Shown here in pieces: positions 4,167-60,116 of a stretch of 64,000 bases of DNA. The notes beneath the pieces are model-generated. The model did no database searches and was not told the DNA's origin. It saw only the letters and a program-made list of their open reading frames with translations. This DNA is from Mesoplasma photuris ATCC 49581. Lineage in GTDB: Bacteria > Bacillota_I > Bacilli_A > Mycoplasmatales > Mycoplasmataceae. The stretch is taken from NCBI RefSeq assembly GCF_000702725.1, contig NZ_JNJI01000006.1, positions 1-64,000 of the forward strand. Reading direction: 5' to 3'. The translations under genes were made by a program, and so were the position numbers. Positions within the stretch are counted from its first letter, which is position 1, and the number at the start of each line of letters is the position of its first letter.

Positions 4167-4262
4167 TTTTCTTCCTCCAGTCTAGACTCGCCTTCGTACG
4201 TGAGAACTAAGTTCTGCTTTTTTAACATACTAGTAAGAGCGGTTGAAACTATTTTGTTTTCA
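4167..4262 (-). promoter_or_regulatory. probable L21 leader RNA
   Basis: The transcribed leader of rplU has short hairpins (for example AGAAC/GTTCT) and ends in the segment GTCTAGACTGGAGGAAG just before the start codon. Its position and the GTCTAGACTGGAGG ending resemble the L21 leader family of Firmicutes, which is thought to mediate autoregulation. The family assignment is from memory and has not been checked with a covariance model. Confidence 0.5.
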
Positions 4263-57048: not shown

Positions 57049-59883
57049 TTATAGTCACTTTTTATAAATTTTAATGAATAGCATTTTAACAGTTTGTGCC
57101 ACCAAACAATAAGCACTAATTATACCAACCACGATTGGAATGTAAATTAGTGAAGGCTGGGCAAATCTGAAAATAGATCCTATTGGTTCAATATATGGTA
57201 TTAAGAAAGCAACTAACATTATGATTCCTCCAATTAAGAAAATTGGTCATGGTGATCTAGATTTTATAAATGGTAATTTTTCAGTTCTTAAAATATGGAA
57301 TATAATTGTTTGAGAAATTAATCCCACAATAAATCATGATCCTTGGAAAATAGATTGTGCTAAGTCTTTTGCATCAACTCCAATTTCTGGATTAATACCC
57401 ACCAATAGGCTTGCATCATTATTATTGTATGCTTGAACTGTACCTAAACCTCAACCAACAATAACAAAGGTAATGATGTCAAAAATTGAACTGACTGGAC
57501 CATTTATTAATGCAAAAGGCACGAACTCTTTAGAGTTTCATTTTTGTGGTTTTTGAATAAATGTATCATCAACCCTATCCATTACAGAAACAAATTGAGA
57601 AAAATCGTAAATTAAATTTTGTAATAGCAGCTGTGATGGTAGCATTGGTAAAAATGGTAAAAATGCTGCAACTAACAACATTGATAATGCATTACCAAAA
57701 TTTGATGAGAAAGTTATTTTTGCATATTTTAAAATATTTCCAAAAATCATTCTTCCTTCAATAATCCCTTTTTCTAAAACAAGTAATGATTTTTCTAAAA
57801 GAATAATATCTGAAGCATCCTTTGCAATATCTGTGGCATTTTGAACTGAAATAGCAACATCAGATTGTCTAAGAACAGGAGCATCATTAATACCATCTCC
57901 CATATAACCAACTGAATGACCATTAGATTTTAAAACTTGAATGATTCTAACTTTTTGTAATGGATTCAATTTAACAAAGATGTTATTTTTTTCAACAATG
58001 CGTTTTAGCTCTTGTTCGCTAGCGTTTTCAATTTCTGAACCAGTAACTAAACCGGTGATATCTAAATTAACCATTTTACAAATAGCACGAGTAACCGGTT
58101 CGTTGTCCCCTGTTAATATTTTTAAATCTACACCATATTTTTTTAATAAAGATATCATTTTAGCTGATGATGGTTTTGGTGTATCTAAAAATGATGCAAA
58201 ACCATAAAATATCAATTCTGATTCATCTTCAACTTTAAAAACTGTTTGATTATCTTCAACAGGTTTATAAGCAATTCCTAGAACTCTCTTACCTTCTTCG
58301 TTTGCTTTTTCAAAATAGGCTTCGATTTGACGTCTCAATTCATCATTAATTTCTACAACTTTTCCTTTATAAAATACTCTATTTGATGAATTCATGATTT
58401 CTTCAGCAGAACCCTTCGTGATCATAATTCTACCCTCTACTTCAGAATCAATCACAAGTGTTAATTTTCTTCTGTTGAAATCAAATGGTATTTCATCTAC
58501 TTTAGAAAATTTATCAGTTTTATTAAAATCGAAATTATTTTTAGTAACATAATCTAAAACAGCTTTATCCATCGGATTTCTCAATCCCGTTTGGAAGTAA
58601 GAATTCATATATAATAATTTAATTAATTTATCGTCTTTTTTCTTATCAACACTTAAATATTCAACTAAATCAATTTTATCGTTTGTAAGTGTTCCTGTTT
58701 TGTCTGTACATAAAATATCGATTGCACCTAGTGCTTGAACAGCTTCAAGTTCTTTCACAACAACTTTGTTTTTAGCCATTCTACGTGATCCTCTTGAAAG
58801 GTTAATGTTCACTATCATCGGAAGCATTTCTGGTGTTAAACCAACTCCTACAGCTGCCGCAAAAATTAAACCTCCTACTCAAGGACTAATTGCGTCGTTT
58901 TTTAGTTCGTTATTTGTAAGTGATGCAACAATGTAAATGATTGGAACCATCATTAACATGAATATTAATAATATTCTAGTAACTGATTTAATACCTTTAG
59001 TAAATGAGCTCTCCGGTCTTTTTTGCATAATAGTTTTACTAATTGTTGCAAAATAAGTATCATTGGATGTAGCGATTACAATTGCAATTGCTCCCCCAGA
59101 AACAACCGATGTCCCTGTGTAACAAATATTTTCTAAATCAAGAATATTATCAGTATTATTAGAATTATATGCGTGCTTTTCAACTGGCAAAGATTCACCA
59201 GTTAAAGAAGATTGATTGATAAATAAGTCTGTTGAAAGAATAATTCTAACATCAGCTGGTACCATATCTCCACTTGAAAGATATACTAAATCTCCAGGAA
59301 CCAATTGCTTAACATCGATTTCTTCTCCAAGTTTAATTAAATTTAATTGATTTTGTTTTTCAACTTTTTTATATTCTATTAATTTTTCATCATTTTGATG
59401 ACGAATAATATTTGTTGTAGTTTTAACAATTGAACTAATTTTTTTAGTACTAAAGAATGATTTAATTACTTGAATATATGAAATTGTTCCTGAAATTAAT
59501 ACCATTGCTGATGTTATAACAATTCCCGCTATTTCAAATGGTGATGTTGAAGCATCTCAAACAGGATTGAATGATCAATCACTAAATTGAGCTGTCAAAT
59601 AACTAAATAAATTAAAAAATGTTATTGCTATCAAAATTAAATTAAACGCATTAAAATAGCTCTTTACAAACTCTCCAAATCAATTAAAATTTACTTTTTG
59701 GATTTCATTTGTTCCAAATTTTTCTAAATTATCTCTGAATTGTTCGTCTGTTAGTCCAAAATATTCAATACCAAAATGATTTAAAATTTCATTTTGGTCA
59801 TATTTTGACATATTCATAATCATTTGTTCATTATTAAATGATAATTTTTTTATTCTAGATTTTTTGATTCTAGTTTTTTTCAT
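57049..59883 (-). CDS. mgtA: magnesium-type P-ATPase
   Basis: This 944-residue P-type ATPase fits the P3B (MgtA) subfamily, which imports Mg2+. The actuator domain has SSLTGESLPVEK, the phosphorylation site is CTDKTGTLTND, nucleotide binding KGSAEEI and the hinge GDGINDAPVLRQSDVAISV, typical of MgtA in its VQNATDIAKDASDIILLEKSL sequence. About ten membrane segments. The start has AGAAGGAG upstream. A 34-codon ORF lies 40 bases upstream. Two TGA Trp codons occur near 57538 and 58878. Confidence 0.92.
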
Positions 59884-59923
59884 ATGTATCCACTCCTTCT
59901 ATAAATAAGGAATTTAAACTAAA

Positions 59924-60028
59924 CTAAAAAGCTCTGTTGTCAGAAGCGATTATTACAGCATAGTTAAATTCTGTTTTGTTAATATAAACGGACTCAGGAT
60001 TGTCATCTAAAACGTTAATTTTAGCCAT
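59924..60028 (-). CDS. small ORF, candidate mgtA leader peptide
   Basis: This 34-residue ORF has an excellent ribosome site (GAGGTGG, 5 bases before ATG) and a clear -10 box just upstream, and ends 40 bases before mgtA. After a basic start the sequence contains VLDDNPESV, an acidic run broken by Pro. Acidic-Pro segments in the mgtA leader peptide of enterobacteria destabilise translating ribosomes at low Mg2+. A similar control here is an inference. It is not homologous to a protein I recognise and could also be an independent small protein. Confidence 0.6.
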   Translation of the reverse strand: MAKINVLDDNPESVYINKTEFNYAVIIASDNRAF

Positions 60029-60054
60029 AATAACCACCTCTTTCTATCTTATAA

Positions 60055-60060
60055 ATTATA
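60055..60060 (-). promoter_or_regulatory. -10 box of mgtA leader transcript
   Basis: A consensus TATAAT on the minus strand lies 27 bases upstream of the small ORF start. The -35 region is weak (TTTTAA at the expected place). The 5' leader before the ORF would be about 20 bases. Confidence 0.55.
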
Positions 60061-60095: not shown

Positions 60096-60116
60096 AAAAG
60101 ACCTTTTGGGTCTTTT
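60096..60116 (-). terminator. terminator of tpiA-HAD-gpmI operon
   Basis: AAAAGACC-TTTTG-GGTCTTTT just after the gpmI stop with a T-run on the minus strand. Confidence 0.85.

Follow-up and report, generated by a model that had tools for sequence, protein, structure and literature searches.

A leader ORF and conserved RNA switch upstream of mgtA in Mesoplasma photuris and its relatives: a probable ribosome-operated attenuator of a magnesium pump

Mollicutes serve as models of the minimal cell, which lends interest to the way in which such near-minimal bacteria control Mg2+ with neither an M-box nor Rho. In other bacteria, including Bacillus subtilis, the M-box riboswitch (RF00380) controls Mg2+ transporter genes. 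A second type of control uses the ribosome itself. In Salmonella MgtQ, a short ORF before the Mg2+ P-type ATPase gene mgtB, the RNA adopts either the 1:2 and 3:4 folds or the 2:3 fold, and it has been shown experimentally that early acidic residues hinder leader translation and so free the mgtB ribosome site, which lies in 3:4 (PMC8092293). The enterobacterial mgtA leader ORF MgtL also combines early Pro/acidic codons with mutually exclusive leader structures, and inefficient translation of the leader raises mgtA (PMC11552253, PMC6460261); its output is Rho-dependent transcription termination. CorL, the uORF of corA, acts through Rho as well, with two alternative RNA folds and CorL translation inverse to the Mg2+ transporter (PMC11552253). 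In amino-acid attenuators such as the ilvB uORF of Corynebacterium, slow codons in the leader ORF set which of the alternative folds is formed (PMC11109978).

Here, we analyse the region upstream of mgtA in a window of 64,000 nucleotides, which is the whole stretch of Mesoplasma photuris ATCC 49581 DNA under study. The locus consists of the following elements:

57049..59883, minus strand: mgtA, magnesium-translocating P-type ATPase of 944 aa (UGA read as Trp), TIGR01524 above cut-off
59924..60028, minus strand: leader ORF, ATG at 60028, 34 codons and TAG, peptide MAKINVLDDNPESVYINKTEFNYAVIIASDNRAF, based on translation, positional conservation and frame tests
60055..60060, minus strand: putative -10 box TATAAT, from sequence; relatives have a similar TATAAT just 5' of their leader ribosome site
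60096..60116, minus strand: intrinsic terminator of the upstream phosphoglycerate mutase gene, from a terminator scan

MgtA scores 903.8 bits against TIGR01524 (magnesium-translocating P-type ATPase; cut-off 610.75), the solved proteins that match it best are Magnesium-transporting ATPase, P-type 1, and judged by its sequence it is a genuine Mg2+ P-type ATPase. The terminator ends the upstream gene, and the mgtA transcription unit is therefore isolated. The TATAAT box was missed by a generic promoter scan because it lacks a -35 match; it would place the start of the mgtA-leader transcript approximately 7 nt 3' of the box. The original prediction had pointed out a 34-codon ORF with a strong ribosome site and a DDNPES segment between a TATAAT box and an MgtA-type gene, a description that the sequence and the TIGR01524 match bear out. 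It had also recognised no M-box, and covariance searches agree, with none in the window at gathering or permissive thresholds and none in 60 family genomes, and with the positive controls B. subtilis and L. lactis both detected. More generally, no Rfam family was found in the mgtA leader at the gathering threshold, and the permissive threshold gave chance-level matches only. Elsewhere in the window, a Ribosomal protein L21 leader (RF00559) at 4174-4254 on the minus strand scores just above the gathering score. Mollicutes have been reported to be without Rho (PMC7745072), and a search for the Rho RNA-binding domain, which detected 9 of 14 positive controls, gave no match in this genome. No intrinsic terminator was found between the leader ORF and mgtA.

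The leader ORF has a strong ribosome site, GAAAGAGGTGG, and its stop codon lies approximately 40 nt 5' of mgtA. The ribosome-site pattern GAAAGAGGTGRTNNNNATG is found only once in the whole 779-kb genome, at this ORF, and a stricter pattern occurs once per genome in 16 relatives, each time ahead of mgtA. The leader peptide has no Pfam domain, and a similarity search with it returned a self-match and no significant relative, so we located the MgtA orthologues and read their upstream regions. An ORF of 23-44 codons with the same type of ribosome site is present immediately 5' of mgtA in 50 of the 60 family genomes; by group, it occurs in all members of g1, g2, g3, g7, g9, g10 and g12, in one of two in g11 and in eight of 14 in g8. 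Leader ORFs of a more divergent kind lie ahead of mgtA in several other mollicute families as well, and none was seen upstream of the divergent MgtA paralogues (28-42% identity; loci L079-L099). This distribution supports a leader ORF that is specific to mgtA; its conservation lies in position and structure. A second, divergent MgtA-like P-type ATPase (G000:C2:173990-176509; 37% identity) has no leader ORF in its upstream region (L092).

Two frame tests bear on coding. In one subgroup, an internal anchor lies at a distance of 48, 54 or 57 from the ATG, which is divisible by 3 in 10/10 aligned leaders, and closely related leader pairs differ 180 times at codon position 3 compared with 98 and 95 times at positions 1 and 2. 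The ORF is more than a product of chance and looks translated, and it is presumably translated in the cell.

The early part of the peptide has a distinct composition and contains a rare codon:

59990..60007, minus strand: acidic/Pro segment DDNPES, codons 8-13, ending in Ser TCC (codon 13, 59990-59992), from translation

Across 33 representatives, the first 14 residues after Met contain 7.8% Pro and 13.2% Asp+Glu, compared with 2.1% and 4.8% in the remainder of the same peptides. Motifs that recur early in the closest groups are DSPES (SPLPLEDSPES, SPLPVSDSPES), DNPEP, DTPDS, GEGPES, FPDPES, TPEPEPGE and SPLP. Leaders of g9, g7, g3 and g11 begin instead with MSIPS or MNVPLDNSD, and those of g10 with MSPLSSFNDEVP; the acidic-Pro stretch is not universal, because the early segment is only MSIPS in many relatives. 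The Ser codon TCC is found within codons 2-15 in 26 of 30 representative family leaders, and most f3 and f7 leaders lack it. It accounts for 29 of 420 early leader codons against 13 of 17,316 codons in MgtA genes, an odds ratio of approximately 99 with kinship ignored. In the window, the codon is rare in general (19 of 19,833 codons of long ORFs, and 0 of 756 early codons of ORFs). The tRNA-Ser genes of this genome have the anticodons UGA and GCU only, and therefore the reading of UCC must fall to the UGA anticodon, by wobble to C. In the family leaders, UCC is placed in frame 0 in 29 cases, as the T of one codon followed by the CC of a Pro codon in 24, and never in the third frame, given which UCC is less likely to act through RNA pairing than as a codon. 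Among the tRNA genes, one with anticodon TCA at L230/L233 (G000:C2:82431-82619), called SeC by ARAGORN, adjoins tRNA-Trp(CCA) and is presumably a UGA-reading tRNA-Trp.

The leader RNA contains three segments that can pair in two ways:

60023..60042, minus strand: segment A, ribosome site and start codon of the leader ORF (AAGAGGTGGTTATTATGGCT), leader -14 to +6, pairs with B
59941..59972, minus strand: segment B, the switching strand within the ORF's second half, approximately +55 to +85, from duplex positions and the swap test
59909..59926, minus strand: segment C (TAGTTTAGTTTAAATTCC), beginning around the leader stop codon, pairs with B

Within B, positions 59941-59960 pair with A and 59955-59972 with C. 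For the window leader, A:B has a computed energy of -23.8 kcal/mol (z -5.2) and B:C of -11.2 kcal/mol (z -1.8). Over 64 leaders compared with dinucleotide shuffles, the mean z is -2.79 for A:B and -2.26 for B:C, and control pairings gave 0.03 (mgtA start with its own coding region) and 0.29 (leader A with mgtA). Exchanging partners among 32 representatives weakens both pairings, from -16.1 to -9.6 kcal/mol for A:B and from -14.8 to -8.7 kcal/mol for B:C (p 0.00005 each; shared ancestry is only partly corrected for in the swap and shuffle p-values). Subgroup alignments contain two-sided compensatory changes in the pairings. A:B and B:C overlap within B in most leaders, and in nearly all of those from the family, and, sharing part of this strand, are therefore mutually exclusive. 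The MFE fold of the window leader consists of an 18 bp A:B helix and a hairpin of 7 bp that covers the mgtA ribosome site. Its total folding energy is unexceptional (z -1.5), and hence it is the specific pairings and their covariation that carry the argument. Together, the computed pairings and the comparison of leaders make a conserved A:B / B:C switch in the mgtA leaders of Mesoplasma/Spiroplasma relatives well supported. A role of A:B or B:C as a terminator with a U-run was dropped, given that the leader has no terminator and that relatives do not conserve the U-runs.

The most probable reading, to which we assign a probability of roughly 0.6 from sequence, folding models and analogy, is that the leader is a ribosome-operated translational attenuator of mgtA, in which the ribosome reading the leader ORF probably switches the pump on or off. 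It builds on what the comparison of relatives brings out: a leader ORF kept in frame, the distinct composition of its early part with the UCC codon, and the A:B and B:C pairings, which exclude each other. With no ribosome on the leader, A:B would shut the leader ribosome site and, in this genome, C:D would cover the mgtA ribosome site, so that both are closed. If ribosomes stall or are lost within the first approximately 13 codons, at the acidic/Pro segment and the rare UCC, A would be occupied and B would pair with C; formation of B:C would loosen C:D and mgtA would be translated. A ribosome running smoothly to the leader stop would melt B, and C:D would re-form. Low Mg2+ would destabilise ribosomes on acidic/Pro nascent chains, and slow or aborted leader translation would result in more MgtA. 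Translation of the ORF, Mg2+ as the signal, the ON/OFF polarity and the readout at the mgtA site are what we infer.

The readout would take place at the following hairpin:

59892..59913, minus strand: C:D hairpin of 7 bp with the mgtA ribosome site AAGGAG (59893-59898) as its 3' arm, from the MFE fold

Opening the mgtA ribosome site of the window costs 6.1 kcal/mol (z 1.0), and over all leaders the opening-cost test gives a mean z of +0.74 with strong lineage differences. C:D is above chance in several lineages (for example g8, part of g9, f5, L016 and L018), and the opening-cost test finds it absent in g7, g3, g11, another part of g9, and f3. Hence, we claim sequestration of the mgtA site only where it is seen. 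General sequestration by C had been our first guess, against which stand a mean z of 0.14 for pairing of C with the mgtA ribosome site in an initial duplex test and the lineage differences. In the window, the mgtA site has a modelled accessibility of 0.03 when the RNA is free; a ribosome placed at the leader start raises this to 0.39, and values of 0.05 and 0.04 result for one at codon 13 and one at the leader stop, respectively. In g7, formation of B:C is predicted to make the mgtA site less accessible. The readout step may therefore differ among lineages. Because C:D is patchy and the modelled release modest, the output is the weakest part of the model. Several points speak against the attenuator: a ribosome paused at codon 13 would leave A uncovered; in the window, the predicted rise in mgtA-site accessibility is confined to the ribosome at the leader start; C:D is not general; and many relatives have MSIPS and no acidic-Pro stretch.

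A more specific version places the sensing of Mg2+ at the codon. Decoding of UCC by tRNA-Ser(UGA), with its U34-C3 contact and beside Pro/acidic residues, would become rate-limiting in falling Mg2+, hold the ribosome early and thereby reset the A/B/C switch. We regard this as a tentative and rather unlikely proposal. If true, it would be a decoding-based Mg2+ sensor in minimal cells with neither Rho nor an M-box, evolved separately from MgtL and MgtQ.

Alternatively, the RNA itself could sense Mg2+, with high Mg2+ stabilising A:B and shutting the leader ribosome site, low Mg2+ opening A:B and turning mgtA on, and the ORF doing no more than coupling translation to mgtA, by reinitiation or by melting of the hairpin. 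No other pairing is as strong or as universal as A:B, which covers the leader start codon directly, no special peptide is needed, which fits the variable peptides, and the leader stop is near enough to mgtA for a terminating ribosome to disturb C:D. However, the conserved in-frame UCC and the acidic/Pro bias would be unexplained, and an ordinary AU-rich helix does not sense Mg2+ specifically; we consider direct sensing by the RNA unlikely. The UCC codon could also be taken to mean that what the leader monitors is translation capacity or charged tRNA-Ser, and not Mg2+, in the manner of an amino-acid attenuator: it is an in-frame Ser codon in most family leaders and is readable by one tRNA only, and Salmonella mgtL responds also to Pro-tRNA (PMC6460261). 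Yet there is a single Ser codon and no run, mgtA has no link to serine, and the f3 and f7 leaders mostly do without the codon; we consider this reading improbable. It is very improbable that the product of the ORF is a functional small protein that acts on MgtA and that translation of the ORF plays no part in regulation. The ORF is conserved, has a good ribosome site and adjoins mgtA, but the peptides are too divergent to detect one another by search, vary in length and in the C-terminal half and lack a Pfam domain, and the second half of the ORF coincides with strand B, whose sequence covaries with those of A and C; this reading was rejected on the divergence and the covarying pairings. A chance ORF in an ordinary 5' UTR, easily imagined in AT-rich DNA in which stops are few and short ORFs common, is refuted by the presence in most family genomes of the same site type and spacing, the conserved frame and the covarying pairings, and has practically no probability left.

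Compared with the described systems, the attenuator proposed here resembles MgtQ in that a short ORF encoding acidic residues early on precedes the gene for a Mg2+ P-type ATPase, and 1:2, 3:4 and 2:3 correspond to A:B, C:D and B:C. MgtQ differs in that it has 8 codons and lies in an operon intergenic region, compared with 34 codons near a presumed transcript start; no sequence relationship is seen, the pairing of segment 4 is not kept in all mollicute lineages, and the structures here are computed. The original prediction had raised the possibility that the ORF senses low Mg2+ as MgtL does. Among the relatives, conservation of the ORF stands and that of the acidic-Pro segment stands only in part; an mgtA-specific leader ORF, early acidic/Pro residues and mutually exclusive folds are likewise found, and in our model inefficient leader translation would also raise mgtA. 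Rho was not found in this genome, so a MgtL-type output is inapplicable and the output would have to be translational. CorL shares the two alternative folds, but is Rho-dependent, has fewer acidic/Pro residues and serves a different transporter. The ilvB-type attenuators share a leader ORF and alternative folds set by slow codons, but have enriched regulatory codons and an intrinsic terminator, whereas the window has a single UCC and no leader terminator; unlike in M-box systems, the riboswitch is absent here and from the 60 family genomes. The window system would thus work like MgtQ and MgtL, yet it lacks the Rho feature that defines MgtL, and no evidence of common descent was seen.

What goes beyond the original prediction is the conserved A:B / B:C switch, which is the strongest feature, and the conserved rare UCC codon. 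In neither Rfam nor the open-access literature did we find a leader ORF of mollicute mgtA described, a scope that mostly leaves subscription papers outside. An mgtA leader ORF with a conserved switch across Mesoplasma, Spiroplasma and relatives would suggest a repeated origin of ribosome-based control of Mg2+ pumps, and the leader is a compact system that is directly testable in M. florum-like strains.

Some relatives have other arrangements. In f3/g36 (L114, L117, L124, L125, L134, L140), leader ORFs often start with MD or MN.HL and contain a recurrent D/E-Y-Y segment; UCC is absent from the representatives checked, some start with TTG, and most have the A:B pairing. In g8, a different conserved mgtA leader (L025, L027-L031, L033, L034, L036 and L077, upstream of one mgtA copy) contains the near-identical, mutually complementary RNA stretches GATTTAGGAATTTTATTACTTT ... 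AAAAGTCCTAAATTTATA and no clear strong-site leader ORF. In f7/g18 (L120, L122, L132, L133), short ORFs before mgtA have a common [ED]RS[YW] segment, and the mgtA ribosome site is covered by a CTCC/GGAG hairpin.
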